Source: a virus. Taken from it: a DNA stretch of 23,604 nucleotides. This document shows positions 296 to 22,566 of the stretch, one piece after another. The DNA lies in the IMG/VR virus record IMGVR_UViG_3300043544_000003, positions 1-23,604 of that record; one strand, 5' to 3'. The stretch's first letter is position 1; each line of letters starts with the position of its first letter. A program made the translations under genes and the position numbers. A model generated the notes under the pieces. It was given only the letters and a program-made list of their open reading frames with translations, was not told the origin of the DNA and ran no database searches.

Positions 296-895
296 TTAGA
301 TGTCTCCCGGTAATGTCCCGTATTGGACAACATATGTATCAGGATCATATCCTGATGGTAATCGAATAATTTCAGCTTCAAACCCGTACTGAATAAGTTT
401 GTTATAAATTTCTGCACTTTTTGTGCGACCAATGGGGTCGCCATCCAACATAACGAAGCATTTGTCTGTGAACCGCCTAAGCAACGAGATCTGATAAACG
501 TTAATGTTTGTACCTAACAAAGCACAAACATTATAAACGCCGCGTGTAATGAGAGCGAAAACGTCAAATGGTCCTTCTACCAAAATAGCGCCTTTCTTGT
601 AGACGAACGGAAACGTCTTATCGAGACCAAATAGAACATTCTTACTGAAAGGCAACGAATCATACTTCGGGCCCGACTTGGTCAACCGTCTCAAATAAAC
701 AGATACGGTACGACCGTATAAATCTTTCACGGGGAAAAGAAGACCGATGTCGTTCAAAAATTTAGGGGGAGGATTGTCTGGGAAATAACCAATAACACGA
801 TCCTTTACAAGAAGGCCTATCCCAAATATCCTGGCAACTTTATCGGATATTGCCTTCTTGGCCAAAACTTCGGAAAATAGTTCTTCTGGGGTCAT
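296..895 (-). CDS. dnaG: DnaG-type primase catalytic core (TOPRIM), without zinc finger
   Basis: This 199-residue protein should make the RNA primers for phage DNA replication. It has the N-terminal core subdomain of DnaG primases (roughly residues 25-95, including PKYDSLP and the LFGLDK segment), followed by a TOPRIM fold. The TOPRIM motifs are the catalytic Glu in EGPFD (107-111), DGDPIGR (151-157) and a late DPD (184-186). The usual N-terminal CHC2 zinc finger and C-terminal helicase-binding domain are both missing. A matching zinc-finger protein is encoded separately at 14185-14640 beside the helicase, so the primase looks split into two genes. The start ATG overlaps the dpdA stop (ATGA), and no good Shine-Dalgarno site is seen, which suggests translational coupling. 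Family call is firm; the two-subunit assembly is inference. Confidence 0.85.
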   Translation of the reverse strand: MTPEELFSEVLAKKAISDKVARIFGIGLLVKDRVIGYFPDNPPPKFLNDIGLLFPVKDLYGRTVSVYLRRLTKSGPKYDSLPFSKNVLFGLDKTFPFVYKKGAILVEGPFDVFALITRGVYNVCALLGTNINVYQISLLRRFTDKCFVMLDGDPIGRTKSAEIYNKLIQYGFEAEIIRLPSGYDPDTYVVQYGTLPGDI

Positions 896-1645: not shown

Positions 1646-2476
1646 TCAAAATTGGAATGTTAACTGGTCATTGACCAGATCTCTCAACTCGAGCATAACT
1701 TTACTAAAAACCTCTACATAGGTAATATTAAGATTGTGTGTTTTAATAAGCTCGGGCCAGTTTATTTCGGTATTGTACTTAACCGGATCAACTAACCCGG
1801 CTTGTGCAAAAGCTAAAATACGTTCCTGACTAGTTGGGTTAGAACTGTCCGCGATCAGGTTTTGCTCATCAACGACAGCGTACGATGACCATGTTTTAGA
1901 ATAATTAACACCTAGACCGGTTCCAAGTACAACAATTTCACATTTTTTGAGGTTAACAAACGGGGCAATAACTTTTATCTTATTCCTACGGTTAAGTTTT
2001 GTAACAGCGTTAATCGCTTCAACATATTCTGGGGTACAATCCCAATAACCGTAAACGTCTCGCTGTTGCGCACCATAATACACAACGTTACATCCATTAG
2101 CTTCGGCGTAAGACAAACAAATACCTAGTAAAATAGTGTTTCTGAAAGGTACATATGTAACAGGCTGGTCTTCATTACCTCTGATCTCCTCCAAAGTGGG
2201 GACTTTTACAGCGTCGCTAACTAAAGCTGTACTCTTGCCAAGCAAGTCTTTCATAAAAGAAATGTCGACTATCTTGTGATCATGTACTTCAACTCCGATT
2301 GCTTTGCCAATTTCCTTAAGTTCGTTTACTTGATACCTGGCCATTTCCAGCTCTATTTTGTGCTTCTGACCATAGTAGAACGATATGGGATATATTTCGT
2401 TCCGCAATTCTTTAACAACGAAATGCGCCAAAGTTGTTGAATCTAAACCACCTGATATTGAAACTACTGCTTTCAT
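1646..2476 (-). CDS. queC: QueC, 7-cyano-7-deazaguanine (preQ0) synthase lacking the zinc-site cysteines
   Basis: QueC converts 7-carboxy-7-deazaguanine to preQ0 using ATP and ammonia. The 276-residue protein has the N-type ATP-pyrophosphatase loop SGGLDST (8-14), TYVPFRN (107-113), YGAQQRD (134-140) and YWDCTPEY (144-151), all typical of QueC. In the family a C-terminal site of four Cys (TWxCY...CGxCxxCxxR) binds zinc. Here the same region reads TWSSY (195-199) and DSSNPTSQER (210-219), with Ser, Asp, Asn and Ser in the four positions, although the surrounding residues still align. The start is set by GGAGGT just upstream of ATG 2476, after a 118-base intergenic cassette. It is first gene of the queC-dpdA-primase core block. 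The fold call is firm; whether it is active without zinc is unknown. Confidence 0.88.
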   Translation of the reverse strand: MKAVVSISGGLDSTTLAHFVVKELRNEIYPISFYYGQKHKIELEMARYQVNELKEIGKAIGVEVHDHKIVDISFMKDLLGKSTALVSDAVKVPTLEEIRGNEDQPVTYVPFRNTILLGICLSYAEANGCNVVYYGAQQRDVYGYWDCTPEYVEAINAVTKLNRRNKIKVIAPFVNLKKCEIVVLGTGLGVNYSKTWSSYAVVDEQNLIADSSNPTSQERILAFAQAGLVDPVKYNTEINWPELIKTHNLNITYVEVFSKVMLELRDLVNDQLTFQF

Positions 2477-2594: not shown

Positions 2595-3260
2595 TTATAT
2601 CGGACCGGACCACTTTTCGGGAATTGACCAATCTACAATCTCGAGACCGCTTATAGAAAAAAGGCTGTTACCAAAGAATATCCTTACCCGGTTCAGGTCC
2701 GAATCGTTAAGAGCCTCTTCAAAAGTAACGTACTCCTTCTCGGAAAGAATGATACATGGTATCTTCCCAGATTTCATATCATTCTTTGAATAAGGTGAAT
2801 TCGCGTGTCCGTAACACGGTTCATAAATGTTCAACTTATAAGGAACCAAAATGGTAACGGTTCCTTCGACAAACTTGCTATAAACCGGACTTGCGTTATG
2901 TTCGTACGGAGCGCTGTCCCAATCATCGCCAGACTGTGAACCATTTTTACCTAAATAAAATGTAATATAGCTCCTTTTGACTTCAAAATCAATTATTTCT
3001 TTGTCTTTCAGTACTTCCGGAATTCGCGGTTCGTACAAGATAAGGGCTTCTTTCAAGTAATATTTCTTGAACTTATCCGAGGACTCGTAGTAAACGTTAG
3101 TACTATAAACAATATCAACGACATTTATACCCGGGTTCAGTCTTAACCAATTGTTGACCACTTCGTCGAGGACCAGATTACTTCTTTGTAAACTGTCTTC
3201 TTTGACAAGAAAAGACTTAACAGTACAATTTTTCACAATTTGATTGTTCACAAAGCTCAC
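2595..3260 (-). CDS. Hypothetical phage protein with weak Cse60-like N-terminus
   Basis: A 221-residue protein with a GTG start that overlaps the previous stop (GTGA). AAGGAG lies about nine bases upstream, which decides the start. Residues about 8-77 (VKSFLV..., VVDIVYST, EALILYE) weakly resemble small Cse60-type domains. The second half carries DDWDSAPYEHNASPVY (about 112-127), a kind of motif I associate with small phage proteins of unknown function. No catalytic motif, signal or membrane helix is evident. It lies between the MazG-like gene and queC, and its stop is followed at once by the cassette hairpin at 2561-2590. Function unknown; the Cse60 resemblance is tentative. Confidence 0.7.
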   Translation of the reverse strand: MSFVNNQIVKNCTVKSFLVKEDSLQRSNLVLDEVVNNWLRLNPGINVVDIVYSTNVYYESSDKFKKYYLKEALILYEPRIPEVLKDKEIIDFEVKRSYITFYLGKNGSQSGDDWDSAPYEHNASPVYSKFVEGTVTILVPYKLNIYEPCYGHANSPYSKNDMKSGKIPCIILSEKEYVTFEEALNDSDLNRVRIFFGNSLFSISGLEIVDWSIPEKWSGPI

Positions 3261-3576: not shown

Positions 3577-4431
3577 TTATACAAAGCTGCGATTGCTCTT
3601 GTACCATTTGTTCCCTTTTTTGATACGACTAATATACGCAATCGCGTTATGTTTATGAATCGATTCGAAACTCACTACCTTAACACGGAACCATTTAACG
3701 TTCTTAAGCTCCGATAATTTGTCAGCGACCCTTCTCGCGAGCCCTTCTACGAAGACAGGATTGTCATAGGCATGTTCTGTAACGTACTTTTCGTCTGGTC
3801 TTTTAAGAATAGCGTAAACGGGTGAGCTCGCTGACTGCTCCGCAATATCAATTAATGTTTCAAAGTAAACGCCGGGAACTTTAGAAACTTCGACTTGTAT
3901 TGTTACTTCGGCACGCTGGTTGTGCGCACCTTTCCCAATTCGTTTTTCATGATCGACTAAACACATTGCTCGGGAACACGGACAAACCGTTTGTACCGGA
4001 ACTGTTACTTGGACAAAATGACGATACGGGGGATAAATTACTGTTATCGCGGAATCGTAAACAAGAACTGCTTTCTTCTTAGTTACCGGTGCAATGGATG
4101 GTCTTGCGAACCCAAAAGAAAATTTCATGTATATATCTTCCAGTCCGAGACGATCCCTCAACCGTTTCGCAATTCCTTTAAAAGATCGAGGTGATAGAAA
4201 CTTCCCCGAATGCTCGAACAAAACTTCTGGTAATCGAGACATATCCACACCTTTTCGTGTGCGCGGTAACCTCGCGTAAGCATCAACTCGGGCGAGAACA
4301 TGACTGACTACAAGGTCTTGGGCTGAACTGTAAATTAGCGACAGTGGAACTTCTACGTTTGATACACCTGCTTTGTCAACGACCATTCTTATCGGGTCTG
4401 GTTTATGTTGTTCGTCAACAAGTTCCTTCAT
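3577..4431 (-). CDS. folE2: FolE2, GTP cyclohydrolase IB
   Basis: Opens the imidazole ring of GTP to give 7,8-dihydroneopterin triphosphate, the entry step to 7-deazaguanine synthesis. The 284-residue sequence matches the FolE2 (type IB) family: KGVDMSRL (60-67, usually KGxHMSRF), VCPCSRAM (149-156), GAHNQR (168-173), EQSASSPVYAILKRPDE (198-214), EHAYDNPVFVEG (219-230) and ESIHKHNA (256-263). Cys150, His170, Glu198 and His261 are the probable metal ligands by comparison with the family. The family is known to work without zinc, unlike ordinary FolE. The start ATG overlaps the polymerase stop, with GGGAGG about eight bases upstream. Phages in deazaguanine clusters more often carry FolE, so FolE2 is noteworthy. 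Family call is confident. Confidence 0.92.
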   Translation of the reverse strand: MKELVDEQHKPDPIRMVVDKAGVSNVEVPLSLIYSSAQDLVVSHVLARVDAYARLPRTRKGVDMSRLPEVLFEHSGKFLSPRSFKGIAKRLRDRLGLEDIYMKFSFGFARPSIAPVTKKKAVLVYDSAITVIYPPYRHFVQVTVPVQTVCPCSRAMCLVDHEKRIGKGAHNQRAEVTIQVEVSKVPGVYFETLIDIAEQSASSPVYAILKRPDEKYVTEHAYDNPVFVEGLARRVADKLSELKNVKWFRVKVVSFESIHKHNAIAYISRIKKGNKWYKSNRSFV

Positions 4432-6806
4432 AGACGGGCCTCCCTCAGCTTGTTCTTAAATTCTGATAAGTTGTCAAGTTCAGCGGTCGATCCTAGACGA
4501 TATCCTATTTCACAATCAAATGGAATGTCTACGAAAAATCCTTTGATACGCTTTCCCAAAATGTCAAACATTATGGCTAATGCTTCTTCGCCCTTGTCTT
4601 CCGGAATCTCGTATGTAAGGGAATCGTGAACAGTTAGTACTAAGTAACATCCTAAATGTTTGATCTTCTCATAGACCAAAGCTCCTTTGAACATAGTATA
4701 ATCAGCTACGGTACTCTGGGGCAAAAAGTTAAGAGCTTGACGTTCTTCAGAAGCCCTGACTTCGAAATCTGGTGAGTTTATACCTGGAAATCGGCGGATT
4801 CGCCCGAAAAAGTTTCGGAGGTACCCTCGTTGTTTTGCGATAGCAACTACTTCTTTGCAGAACTGATACGTCTTCGGAAAGGATCTAAAGAACGAATCAA
4901 TAATACTCTGGGCTTCCTCAATGGGCATATTGTGTTCTTCGGCTATAGATTTTGCTCTCCGGCCGTACATAATTCCGTACACTACAAATTTTGCAAGCCT
5001 TCGACGCTCATCATCAACTTCCTCGACCGGAATATGAAACACCAAAGAAGCAATGACTTTGAGAGGATCATATCCGCTCTCGAACGCTTCCTTCAATTTA
5101 TCGTCTTTCGCATAATGACAAAGAGCTCGGAGTTCGGCTTGCTTGAAATCGATGTTCGCTAGAAAATATCCCTTTTCTGAGATAAAAATGTCTTTAACTT
5201 CTTTATCCCTCGGAATGTTCTGGAGATTCGGTTCGCGGCTGGCAAGACGACCAGTCGTAGTACCGACTAACGTATAATTTGTATGTAACCGATTGTTGCT
5301 GTCACATAATTTGAGGAAGTTCTTAAAGTATGTGCTCGACAATTTTTTCTTCTTACGATAATCCAATAACAAATCTATTACTGGGTGGTAACTACGCAGA
5401 TTCTCGAGAGTAAACGTATCGGTTGACGGATTTCCCGACGCTGTTTTATAAAGTACGGGCAACTTTAGTTTCTCGTAAAGAACTCTCGACAGGTCCCGGA
5501 CTGAGTTAATATTAATTTTCTCGCCGATCAAATCGAAAATGCGCTGTTCGATCACAACGAGATCTTGCTCATATTGCGCGGACAACCGTTTAACATAGTC
5601 AACGTCTATCTTAACGCCGCGTATTCGAGTATCAACAAGCATTTGTATAGTCGGGATGCTCAGCTTGAGATGAAGTTTTGCGAGGGAATCCGGCAACAAT
5701 TTTACCATTTCCTGGTATAAAAGAAACGTTGCGTGGGCGTCTGCACAATTATATTTGAGAACAATAGATGTATCAACGCCTCCAGGTCTATCTTCGTCAG
5801 CAAGAGCAACGTAATCACTTTCGTACCCGCCTTTTCCAAGATACTTCCAAACAATGTTTTTGAGCCCGTACCTCTGAGCCGTCTCGTCTAATAAATGTGC
5901 GATGACCATAGTATCACCGTGGAGGTTCTTACATTCTATACCAAATTCCTTTTTGAGATACATTAAATCGAACATCGCATTGTGAAATATTTTCTTAGAT
6001 TCGTTGCTAAATAATCGTTTAAGATGGTCTATAATCTGACGAAGGTCAGAATCGGACCAATACAACGAACCATCTGGTCTTCTAACAGGGAACCCGAATG
6101 TAAGGTCGCCGGATGAAAATGCAATCGTAAAAATTACAGATTCATACAAAATATCCGACGTTTCGATATCACAACTCCACATCGGTTTTTGTTCTAGTAA
6201 TTTTATGTACCGAATAACTTCATTCTTGTCAAGAAGTATTTTGTAGTTTTCGAAGGACCAGGTATGTGGGTCCACTTTGAGCCACTCAACAACTCGCTTG
6301 AGTGTTTGTTCGACAGCCTTTGTCTTGGACGGGTCGCGTAAAAGAGCAGCTGGGTGGTAAGTCGGTACAAAAATAGTACCGTTTTGTCTAAAAGGAATCC
6401 CTTCCGAATTCTGTAAATTGCGCCTGTTCCCGAGAAAACGTTTAACAGCAACGTTCCCAAGCAACAAAACAATTTTTGGTCTGGTCTTGGACAATTCCTG
6501 ATCTAGCCGGATACCACACACTTTTATTGCATCGGTAGGAGGAGTGGTATTGTTACCGTTTGCATCGGTGGGTCGGCAAGCGACGACGTTCGTAATAAAA
6601 CATTTAGACCGATCTATTCCGGTCTTTTGCAGCAACGATGTGAGAAGTTGACCAGACCGACCAACGAAAGGAGAACCATATTTCTCTTCTTCAGCACCAG
6701 GCGCCTCTCCAATAATTACTAGTTCGGCATTTGTCGGTCCAATACCGAAAACAGGTTTCTTTCCGTACAAAGGACAACCTCTACAGGCTAGCGCGTTTTC
6801 TTCCAT
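4428..6806 (-). CDS. Family A DNA polymerase with N-terminal family-4-type uracil-DNA glycosylase
   Basis: Replicative phage DNA polymerase of 792 residues with three modules. Residues 1-175 form a uracil-DNA glycosylase domain: GEAPG (33-37), PFVGRSGQLL (46-55), the YHP motif (150-152) and four Cys (8, 11, 77, 97) spaced like an iron-sulfur cluster site. Residues about 205-370 form a 3'-5' exonuclease with DIET (213-216), NAMFD (276-280) and YNCAD (352-356), so proofreading looks intact. Residues about 480-770 are the polymerase: TTTGRL (516-521), motif A DFKQAELR (553-560), motif B RRLAKFVVYGIMYG (602-615) and motif C VHDS (726-729). Motif B has Tyr where E. coli Pol I has Phe762, as in T7. 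Motif C has Ser where Glu is usual. GGAG lies about ten bases before the ATG, and the start overlaps the preceding gene. Confidence 0.95.
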   Translation of the reverse strand: MEENALACRGCPLYGKKPVFGIGPTNAELVIIGEAPGAEEEKYGSPFVGRSGQLLTSLLQKTGIDRSKCFITNVVACRPTDANGNNTTPPTDAIKVCGIRLDQELSKTRPKIVLLLGNVAVKRFLGNRRNLQNSEGIPFRQNGTIFVPTYHPAALLRDPSKTKAVEQTLKRVVEWLKVDPHTWSFENYKILLDKNEVIRYIKLLEQKPMWSCDIETSDILYESVIFTIAFSSGDLTFGFPVRRPDGSLYWSDSDLRQIIDHLKRLFSNESKKIFHNAMFDLMYLKKEFGIECKNLHGDTMVIAHLLDETAQRYGLKNIVWKYLGKGGYESDYVALADEDRPGGVDTSIVLKYNCADAHATFLLYQEMVKLLPDSLAKLHLKLSIPTIQMLVDTRIRGVKIDVDYVKRLSAQYEQDLVVIEQRIFDLIGEKININSVRDLSRVLYEKLKLPVLYKTASGNPSTDTFTLENLRSYHPVIDLLLDYRKKKKLSSTYFKNFLKLCDSNNRLHTNYTLVGTTTGRLASREPNLQNIPRDKEVKDIFISEKGYFLANIDFKQAELRALCHYAKDDKLKEAFESGYDPLKVIASLVFHIPVEEVDDERRRLAKFVVYGIMYGRRAKSIAEEHNMPIEEAQSIIDSFFRSFPKTYQFCKEVVAIAKQRGYLRNFFGRIRRFPGINSPDFEVRASEERQALNFLPQSTVADYTMFKGALVYEKIKHLGCYLVLTVHDSLTYEIPEDKGEEALAIMFDILGKRIKGFFVDIPFDCEIGYRLGSTAELDNLSEFKNKLREARL

Positions 6807-13024: not shown

Positions 13025-13747
13025 TTAGACACCTCTCTTTTTGTCAAAAGTATCTATATGAAGACGCGGTGACAAATTGAAACCATGAGATAAGGCGAAC
13101 TTCCAAGCTGGAACTAAATGTTTGTGATAAACTGCTCTGGTTTCTCCTCTTGGCATTATCCATACCCTTCCCGGATCTATCCCGTATCTCTCAACAGTCT
13201 TTAATATAAATACACCGCTTTGTTCATCGTTGTACACAAACTTGACGACATAATTTGAATGATGATAATGTTTACGGAACCATTCTAAAAGGTGCGGAGT
13301 AGTATCGACTTTCCGTCTCTGAGTGGCTGGATCTTTGGGGGAAATGGTCCACCAAGAAACGTGTTTTAGTAAAGATCGGATCAGTGACGGAACAACAGTA
13401 CCGTTAGTCTCAACTTCGATATAAGAGTTGCAGTCAGGTTGGATCATATCAATAATGGTCATCATCCATTCTGGTCCGTTCGAAAACAAAGGTTCATTTC
13501 CAGTGAACACGATCCACGGATGAGATTTTATTAACTGAATGTCCTCTTCTGACAATGGCCTTGATAACGATCTTGCATAAGTAGAATCGCAGAAACTGCA
13601 CATAAGAGGACAACCTGTTGCTAGTCTAACAAATACTCTAGGATGTCCTGTGTTAACGCCTTCCCCTTGAAAGGACAAAAACACTTCAGATACCCTTACT
13701 TCTTTCTCTTGAGAATTTCTTCGATTGTTTTTAAAGTATCTGTCCAT
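13025..13747 (-). CDS. queE: QueE, 7-carboxy-7-deazaguanine synthase (radical SAM)
   Basis: Radical SAM enzyme that contracts 6-carboxytetrahydropterin to 7-carboxy-7-deazaguanine, the substrate of QueC. In 240 residues it has the family opening VSEVFLSFQGEG (19-30), the iron-sulfur CxxxCxxC at Cys46, Cys50 and Cys53, TGNEPL (82-87, usually TGGEPL), EVETNGT (111-117) and SPK (136-138). GAGAGGT about seven bases before ATG 13747 supports this start, although it lies 52 bases inside the end of the metallopeptidase gene. Its substrate needs QueD, which is not in the window and may be elsewhere in the phage or supplied by the host. Confidence 0.92.
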   Translation of the reverse strand: MDRYFKNNRRNSQEKEVRVSEVFLSFQGEGVNTGHPRVFVRLATGCPLMCSFCDSTYARSLSRPLSEEDIQLIKSHPWIVFTGNEPLFSNGPEWMMTIIDMIQPDCNSYIEVETNGTVVPSLIRSLLKHVSWWTISPKDPATQRRKVDTTPHLLEWFRKHYHHSNYVVKFVYNDEQSGVFILKTVERYGIDPGRVWIMPRGETRAVYHKHLVPAWKFALSHGFNLSPRLHIDTFDKKRGV

Positions 13748-17822: not shown

Positions 17823-18285
17823 TTTTGACGCTCCGGAAAGGAATCTTATTCTTGGTCAGGTACTGTTCCAGTTTCGTAAGGCCTCTCTCGTGTCCGTAAA
17901 AATGACTCTTGGCCGACAAAATTACTTTACGATTAAAATATGCGGAGAGGATTGTCTTAATCATTAGTTTGGACACGTCTCTAAATACTCGGGAAAGTTC
18001 GTTCGCGGTGAAAACTTCGTCTTTGTGATGATCAAAATAAAGAGTGAACCGAACTATCGCGGGTAATGAAGAAACGTTGTACCACTTAGATAAAGAGGGG
18101 AGATTGCCTCGGTAAAGGTAAGTATACGTTCGACTGAGTTGACCATTTTCCCTGCCAAAAGATATAGTTATCACGTGACAATCCGGATACCAATCAAGAA
18201 ACCGAACTTTTTCGCACGGAACCCTTACAAATTCGTTGTCCTTAATAACAATCGGTGCCTCTATTTTCAAATCTTGTATCTTCAC
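17752..18285 (-). CDS. Hypothetical protein
   Basis: A 177-residue protein with a GTG start overlapping the patatin stop (GTGA); GGAGA lies seven bases upstream. It appears beta-rich at first (VITISFGRENGQLSRTYTYLY), then helical, ending with a basic beta hairpin (EIVITIKRGGEERRFTYSY). No motif or membrane helix is visible. It overlaps the metallophosphoesterase gene by 71 bases. No function can be assigned. Confidence 0.7.
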   Translation of the reverse strand: MKIQDLKIEAPIVIKDNEFVRVPCEKVRFLDWYPDCHVITISFGRENGQLSRTYTYLYRGNLPSLSKWYNVSSLPAIVRFTLYFDHHKDEVFTANELSRVFRDVSKLMIKTILSAYFNRKVILSAKSHFYGHERGLTKLEQYLTKNKIPFRSVKNGRKEIVITIKRGGEERRFTYSY

Positions 18286-19127
18286 CGTACAATCTCCTCT
18301 GCCTTACGATACCCGTGCTGTATACCTCTTCTTATTTTGATAGGATCAAAGTCAAGCGAGTCAGAAATGTCGAAATCAGGCTCGATTACTTTTATATCAA
18401 TCTTTCTATAGTTGTTAAACGGCCCGAATTTGTCTATCATCTCGTTGATTCGGGTGGCTGTTTCGATATCGTTTACGTAAATTTCGTTTAACAGGATGTC
18501 AAGAACTCGTTCCAAAACTTCAACTACGTTCTTATATCTTTTATACACAACATTTGCGCGTTTTGGTGAACACAACAGTACAAAAATCGTATCTGCGCCT
18601 AGATCAATTGCTTTTTTCAGCGGAACAATATCCCGTACACCGCCATCGACCCATTGTAAATTAGAACGGTTTACTGTTGGAAAAAAGACTGGAATAGTAC
18701 AAGAGGATAAAACATCATCTACTGTCATGTCTTTCTTATTTACATATACAATACTTGTCTCTTGCAAAGACACCTTCCCCACATAAAAATCGATCGGGGA
18801 TTGCATTAGTTTACTTTTGTTAAAAAACTGGCTCAGTATCTTTCTAAGTCCGTCAAACTCATAGACTCCGTTTCTAATGCCTAACAAACACTTCCCGTAA
18901 TTTAGTATACTCTTAGTGTAGATATCTGAATCTCTTTTTATGTTCAACCATACTTGTTCGAGAATGGCAAGATCTTGCTGTGCAACGGCCAAACCTTGCA
19001 ACGACCCTGTCGAAATACCAATAACAATATCTGGTACAATCCTTTTTCTCTCGCACAAATATTTCAGTGCGCCTACTTGAAACGACCCCCTAGCACCACC
19101 ACCTGACAACACAAAAGCTGTTTTCAT
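18282..19127 (-). CDS. Patatin-like phospholipase / acyl hydrolase
   Basis: A 281-residue protein with the complete patatin Ser-Asp dyad layout: oxyanion loop GGGARGS (9-15), nucleophile elbow GISTG (37-41, Ser39) and DGG (161-163, Asp161). It should hydrolyse acyl ester bonds in membrane lipids. There is no signal peptide or membrane segment, so the protein should start in the cytoplasm. GGAGGAG lies just before ATG 19127, which overlaps the stop of the nuclease gene. A lipase inside a phage replication operon is unexpected; membrane remodelling, host takeover, lysis support or a defence/counter-defence role are all possible. Family call is firm, role unknown. Confidence 0.9.
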   Translation of the reverse strand: MKTAFVLSGGGARGSFQVGALKYLCERKRIVPDIVIGISTGSLQGLAVAQQDLAILEQVWLNIKRDSDIYTKSILNYGKCLLGIRNGVYEFDGLRKILSQFFNKSKLMQSPIDFYVGKVSLQETSIVYVNKKDMTVDDVLSSCTIPVFFPTVNRSNLQWVDGGVRDIVPLKKAIDLGADTIFVLLCSPKRANVVYKRYKNVVEVLERVLDILLNEIYVNDIETATRINEMIDKFGPFNNYRKIDIKVIEPDFDISDSLDFDPIKIRRGIQHGYRKAEEIVR

Positions 19128-22330: not shown

Positions 22331-22530
22331 GACTAGTATCGACCAGTATTGGTTGCTTGGTTGGTATCGACCAGTATTGTTTGACTGGTATTGACTGGTA
22401 TTGACTGTTTGACTGGTATTGACTGGTATCGACTGTTTGACTGGTATTGACTGGTATCGACTGTTTGACTGGTATTGACTGGTATTGACTGTTTGACTGG
22501 TATTGACTGTTTGACTGGTATTGACTGTTT
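22331..22530. repeat. Direct-repeat (iteron) array, candidate replication origin
   Basis: The array is built from two words, a 10-mer GACTGGTATT (last base T or C) and an 8-mer GACTGTTT. Four 28-bp units of 10+10+8 run at 22383-22410, 22411-22438, 22439-22466 and 22467-22494. Two 18-bp units of 10+8 follow at 22495-22512 and 22513-22530. Weaker copies (GACTAGTATC, GACCAGTATT) lie at 22331-22350 and 22369-22382. The array sits exactly where strand G/C bias reverses and where gene direction changes. Such arrays bind initiator proteins at many phage and plasmid origins. There is no dyad symmetry within units and no spacer diversity, so it is not CRISPR. Confidence 0.7.
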
Positions 22531-22566
22531 GGTCAGGATTGGTTGCATTCGGTAAGGGTGGATGGT

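Follow-up and report, generated by a model that had tools for sequence, protein, structure and literature searches.

This locus raises the question whether a phage QueC that has lost all four of its zinc-binding cysteines can still be a working preQ0 synthase, and what its product would be used for. The window, that is, the whole stretch of 23,604 nucleotides analysed, carries folE2, two small unknown genes, queC, a DpdA-like gene and a Toprim primase-like gene in succession on the minus strand. With FolE2, QueC and the QueE encoded further up in the window, the DpdA-like gene gives a DpdA-type transglycosylase accompanied by preQ0 genes, the combination by which a phage deazaguanine DNA-modification cassette is recognised. 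The genes concerned are the following:

3577..4431, minus strand, FolE2 (GTP cyclohydrolase IB; PF02649, 2.7e-68)
2595..3260, minus strand, uncharacterised gene between folE2 and queC, with weak matches to unknown phage families only
1646..2476, minus strand, QueC variant lacking the zinc ligands, 276 aa
892..1629, minus strand, DpdA/TGT-like transglycosylase, 245 aa, the next gene downstream of queC
296-895, minus strand, Toprim primase-like gene
13025..13747, minus strand, QueE (7-carboxy-7-deazaguanine synthase; PHROG QueE-like, 1.5e-36)

The QueC product matched PF06508 above the gathering score (1.6e-49, 168.8 bits, cut-off 22), and its score against the NCBIfam equivalog TIGR00364 (147.1 bits) fell narrowly under the cut-off of 150.3. 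The TIGR00364 alignment stops at residue 201, ahead of three of the four cysteine positions. The AlphaFold2 model had a pLDDT of 90.4, the loop with the replaced residues also being confident (block means 85-92), and its top PDB fold matches were the QueC structures 2pg3 and 3bl5, followed by Cap9. At the zinc site the translation of 1646-2476 (minus strand) reads ...TWSSYAVVDEQNLIADSSNPTSQER..., aligned here with the intact phage QueC of KVP40 (...LTCYDPNEAGESCGKCPSCAER...) as the reference. The C(x)8CxxCxxC zinc motif is absent, and its four cysteines are replaced at these codons:

1883..1885, minus strand, Ser198, codon TCG, at the position of zinc Cys 1
1847..1849, minus strand, Asp210, codon GAC, at the position of zinc Cys 2
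1838..1840, minus strand, Asn213, codon AAC, at the position of zinc Cys 3
1829..1831, minus strand, Ser216, codon AGT, at the position of zinc Cys 4

Five IMG/VR relatives of the window QueC were found (83-97% identical), all with identical residues at the four positions, so that S/D/N/S is present in all six contigs; the codons read in five of the contigs agree. The sequence-only reading had placed a QueC without its four zinc cysteines at 1820-1895, and alignment, codons and contigs all bear it out, also in its position. In pairwise codon comparisons within the window clade, dN/dS at larger distances was about 0.03-0.07 for the whole queC and about 0.02-0.04 for the zinc loop; the nearest pair, with few changes, gave 0.18. 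Judged by these comparisons, the window queC is under strong purifying selection, and since dN/dS in the loop is at least as low as in the rest of the protein, the replaced site itself is under selection. The same conservation of the loop argues against both sequencing error and decay; sequencing error, pseudogene and chance are ruled out by the six agreeing contigs together with dN/dS.

According to a family survey from 2026 (PMC13329287), canonical QueC is defined by four sequence motifs (SGGxDS, YxQxHxxE, VPxRN and YPDC), by the zinc motif and by two further conserved residues, a Leu and a Lys, zinc being described there as needed for function. The same source gives Y35, R99, Y131 and Y189 as essential residues of E. 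coli QueC. The corresponding signatures in the window protein, with the first three motifs named as in that text, are:

2438..2455, minus strand, SGGLDS ATP/pyrophosphate loop, residues 8-13
2351..2374, minus strand, YGQKHKIE (YxQxHxxE motif), residues 35-42
2138..2152, minus strand, VPFRN (VPxRN motif), residues 109-113
2036..2047, minus strand, YWDC, equivalent to the substrate motif YPDC with Pro -> Trp, residues 144-147
1880..1882, minus strand, Tyr199, corresponding to Y189 of the E. coli enzyme, kept in 216 of 216 sequences

The window QueC retains the ATP site and all the residues proven essential in the E. coli enzyme, and further Y35/Q37/H39/E42, Y144/D146/C147, the conserved Lys K178 and Y199. 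Invariant across the 216 QueC sequences were Y35, E42, V109, R112, N113, D146, K178, Y199 and R219. The claim that the ATP site and the substrate motifs remain thus holds, with the exception of the Pro -> Trp change in the YPDC counterpart, where Tyr, Asp and Cys are retained; the same change occurs in the intact KVP40 QueC. With canonical QueC (PF06508 cluster 1; B. subtilis 3BL5, E. coli) the protein shares the fold, the ATP loop, YxQxHxxE, VPxRN, Y-x-D-C, the Tyr beside Cys 1 and the Lys. It differs in lacking the four cysteines, in the spacing of positions 1-2 (12 versus 9 in C(x)8C) and in a C-terminal extension (276 aa versus about 222).

Because the ATP site and all the residues essential in E. 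coli are kept, a working zinc-free QueC is the best reading of the locus. Going by the residues and the gene neighbourhood, we consider it likely that this enzyme still makes preQ0 and that the product is most likely put into the phage DNA by the adjacent DpdA-like enzyme. The structural zinc site would have been swapped for a metal-free polar cluster of Ser/Asp/Asn/Ser, and the protein would still turn 7-carboxy-7-deazaguanine into preQ0 using ATP and ammonia. The DpdA-like neighbour would then most likely insert either preQ0 or its amide intermediate into the DNA of the phage itself, where the deazaguanine would protect against restriction. Phage enzymes can behave unexpectedly, since the Gat-QueC of phage 9g did not restore queuosine when tested for complementation of E. 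coli queC (PMC6884629).

The DpdA-like product gave weak matches to DpdA models (NCBIfam 6e-6, PADLOC 1.2e-5), and its structural model (pLDDT 94.7) had TGTs and the DpdA 7ui4 among the top PDB folds. Residues D48, D79, G115 and D193 were invariant in 38 sequences. The protein is about 30-33% identical to the annotated DNA guanine transglycosylase of Flavobacterium phage immuto and to a hypothetical protein of the Campylobacter phages CP220/CPt10, and a homologue directly after queC is also present in Campylobacter phage CC_R7. As the neighbour is DpdA-like by sequence, by model and by its invariant Asp residues, use in DNA modification rather than in tRNA modification or defence is supported, though unproven. 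In CP220/CPt10 DNA guanine is wholly replaced by dADG (PMC8306585), and a 2019 study placed these phages among those lacking DpdA (PMC6884629); by its homology the CP220/CPt10 protein is a candidate for the missing transglycosylase. Homologues of the DpdA-like protein of the window that are annotated as hypothetical include the one at 3001-3777 of L092 (CPt10); that of CC_R7 lies at 3998-4738 of L094.

Among the related viral QueC surveyed first, only a few did not show the simple cysteine pattern, namely a copy of a window-clade contig, L060, L020 and L028. In L060 all four cysteines are present and only the loop is longer, and L028 has three changes at the cysteine positions. L020 (3965-4711) is a phage QueC with a single Cys -> Asp change at position 2, standing beside intact relatives, and is a possible intermediate.

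In the combined survey, where row counts depend on the seeds chosen and are not frequencies, CCCC was found in 176 rows, 80 of them cellular, and S/D/N/S in the six rows of the window clade. A survey of phage QueC for the same change had been proposed from the sequence, and it yielded three further phage groups with three or four cysteines lost. The immuto group, formed by Flavobacterium phage immuto and at least 80 IMG/VR loci, had S/D/S/S throughout (at least 81 rows). The marine group, that of L028, included 27 rows in which Cys 1 is kept, followed by D/S/E, S/T and S. The Rhizobium group, with about 34 IMG/VR loci besides phage RHph_Y1_1, had A/T/D/S, A/V/D/S, S/T/N/N and similar patterns. 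Most replacements in the different groups converge on the same few residues, Asp, Ser, Thr and Asn. All 80 cellular QueC (best matches picked by similarity, not a random sample) had CCCC, and this rules out that the phages inherited a zinc-less QueC from cells. The existence of a phage clade with the same substitutions already shown to be ordinary preQ0 synthases had been named as grounds for giving up the claim of an unusual QueC; similar phage groups do exist, none of them known as an assayed preQ0 synthase. No reports of zinc-less QueC were found in the open-licence literature, and the July 2026 survey (PMC13329287), in its accessible part, treats the zinc motif as one of QueC's two hallmarks and leaves zinc-less phage forms unmentioned.

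The columns of the zinc loop were left out when the QueC trees were made. Three changes were needed in the tree of the window, immuto and marine groups, and five when the Rhizobium group was included, because the intact L426 nests inside that group, which calls for two losses or a regain. A single zinc-less clade was rejected in both trees (p-AU 1.2e-7 with three groups, 2.5e-6 with the Rhizobium group) and the window and immuto groups alone as one clade gave p-AU 0.002, values that are strong and not exact, since the groups were named after the sequences had been seen and the immuto branch is long. One ancient zinc-less clade is ruled out by the loop-free trees and the AU tests. The window clade branches next to intact KVP40-like QueC (support 99/93 for the set). 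On the evidence of these trees, loss of the zinc ligands is independent in at least four phage lineages. Such losses in otherwise standard pathways amount to natural mutagenesis and predict that the zinc is structural and dispensable; from the sequences compared, the zinc of QueC is probably a replaceable structural prop and not part of the chemistry. L426 (391-1068), as an intact CCCC QueC within the Rhizobium-phage zinc-less group, offers a good natural control pair.

Among isolated phages the nearest QueC are those of the KVP40/2.275-type Vibrio phages, 37-40% identical to the window protein and sharing with it Y-W-D and the ...G..DP..Y tail. They differ in the intact Cys4 site, in a separate glutaminase-like gene adjoining queC and in the presence of QueF. 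The QueC of Flavobacterium phage immuto (MW353175) has also lost the four cysteines, and a DpdA of the same family is present in the genome, although the loss is independent, the identity to the window QueC is about 30%, and immuto has FolE1, QueD and QueF. The Rhizobium phage RHph_Y1_1/RHEph04 QueC, likewise without the four cysteines (A/V/D/S), adjoins QueE, QueD and FolE, and its loss is an independent one on the branch with CAjan-like QueC. Cultured phages with a zinc-less QueC are thus available in Flavobacterium phage immuto and the Rhizobium phages, and an annotation that relies on the cysteine motif will overlook genuine QueC of phages.

FolE1 and QueD are zinc enzymes, and the substrate of QueF is preQ0. 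In the immuto- and marine-type contigs, mostly fragments, 39 of 39 had one QueC, and that was zinc-less. FolE1 was found in 13, FolE2 in two, QueD in 15 and QueF in eight of 16 immuto-type contigs; the nine marine-type contigs included FolE1 in six, QueD in six and QueF in two. A weak QueF match in contig G030 was not counted, as it overlaps the FolE gene there. Phage immuto itself encodes FolE, QueD, QueE, QueC, QueF and an annotated DpdA. Since QueF stands beside a sole zinc-less QueC, preQ0 is likely made in these phages; the co-occurrence is strong circumstantial evidence of preQ0 synthesis, as a host QueC could in principle supply QueF. The three window-clade contigs all had FolE2, and FolE1, QueD and QueF were found in none of them. 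With QueD not found in the window clade, which is available as fragments only, the pathway is incomplete in these fragments and may depend on the host. A second, intact QueC had been named as a further finding that would speak against the claim, and none was present in the window or in the contigs of its five relatives, all fragments of at most 56 kb. The NCBIfam QueE models matched the window QueE under their cut-offs, and queE was found in four of the five relatives, in one as an end fragment only. The exception was the 56 kb contig G002.

A bolder form of the preferred reading is that zinc is dispensable and that the site has repeatedly been rebuilt as an oxygen cluster, metal-free or with an alternative metal, which alters how the enzyme behaves, for instance in its ammonia source, the hand-over to DpdA or the end product (ADG instead of preQ0). 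Going as far as this seems rather unlikely.

The enzyme might also, by losing zinc, have become an ADG synthetase that stops at 7-amido-7-deazaguanine, DpdA then inserting ADG as dADG. This would agree with the neighbouring DpdA belonging to the same sequence family as the protein of the dADG phages CP220/CPt10 (PMC8306585) and with the absence of QueF from the window-clade contigs tested. However, the QueC of CPt10 and CC_R7 keep all four cysteines, so dADG is not tied to zinc loss, and zinc loss is ruled out as the explanation of dADG. Zinc-less QueC moreover co-occurs with QueF, which needs preQ0, and the reaction-linked residues are retained. ADG as the end product of the window enzyme is, on balance, improbable.

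There is little to recommend the idea that the oxygens of Ser/Asp/Asn/Ser hold a metal other than zinc and harder, be it Mg, Mn or Ca. The replacements are mostly oxygen- or amide-bearing, strongly conserved within the groups and convergent between them, but one carboxylate per site means few ligands for stable Mg or Ca, in one group position 1 is Ala and position 2 is Val, Thr or Asn, and polar residues would also be the easiest metal-free substitutes.

That this QueC belongs with FolE2 to a deazaguanine route avoiding zinc, as the sequence-only reading had suggested, and is fitted to low zinc, is very hard to uphold. FolE2 is known to stand in for FolE1 without needing zinc (PMC2770081), and in the window-clade contigs tested it belongs to the gene run of queC. 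The remaining zinc-less groups nevertheless use FolE1 (13/16 and 6/9) and QueD (15/16 and 6/9), and FolE2 occurs in five of 28 zinc-less versus one of 21 intact contigs, and three of those five come from the window clade, which leaves no clear association between FolE2 and zinc-less QueC; FolE1 was present in 17 of the 21 intact-QueC contigs. The window phage also retains a CHC2 zinc-ribbon primase, a Rad50-like CPLC zinc hook and a putative phage metallopeptidase. The co-occurrence data largely refute zinc avoidance. Like zinc-independent ribosomal protein paralogues and FolE2 (PMC2770081), zinc-less QueC is a zinc-independent counterpart of a zinc-dependent protein, but those are Zur-regulated back-ups, whereas the zinc-less QueC is the sole copy found per phage contig tested.

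The shift to a defence-type reaction, that is, a protein-modifying QueC-like enzyme comparable to Cap9 or QatC, can practically be set aside: the top fold match outside QueC is Cap9 (9nto) and the TGT-like Cap10 of type IV CBASS (9ntn) weakly matches the DpdA-like neighbour, but QatC keeps its four zinc-binding cysteines (PMC13279940) and Cap9 a cysteine motif of the same kind (PMC13329287), no CD-NTase or Qat proteins were found among the window proteins scanned (a part of all ORFs), the window QueC has no such Cys4 or Cys motif and is 276 aa long versus about 185 in Cap9, and YxQxHxxE, VPxRN and Y-x-D-C are retained together with the linkage to FolE2, QueE and DpdA.

Further features were observed elsewhere in the window. 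The gene at 4428-6806 (minus strand) encodes a fusion protein in which a uracil-DNA glycosylase domain at the N terminus and a 3'-5' exonuclease are joined to a family A DNA polymerase. At 18282-19127 (minus strand), amid phage replication and recombination genes, lies a patatin-like phospholipase that resembles PADLOC phospholipase effectors. Tandem repeats of 28 and 18 bases occupy 22336-22531, in a region without clear genes.
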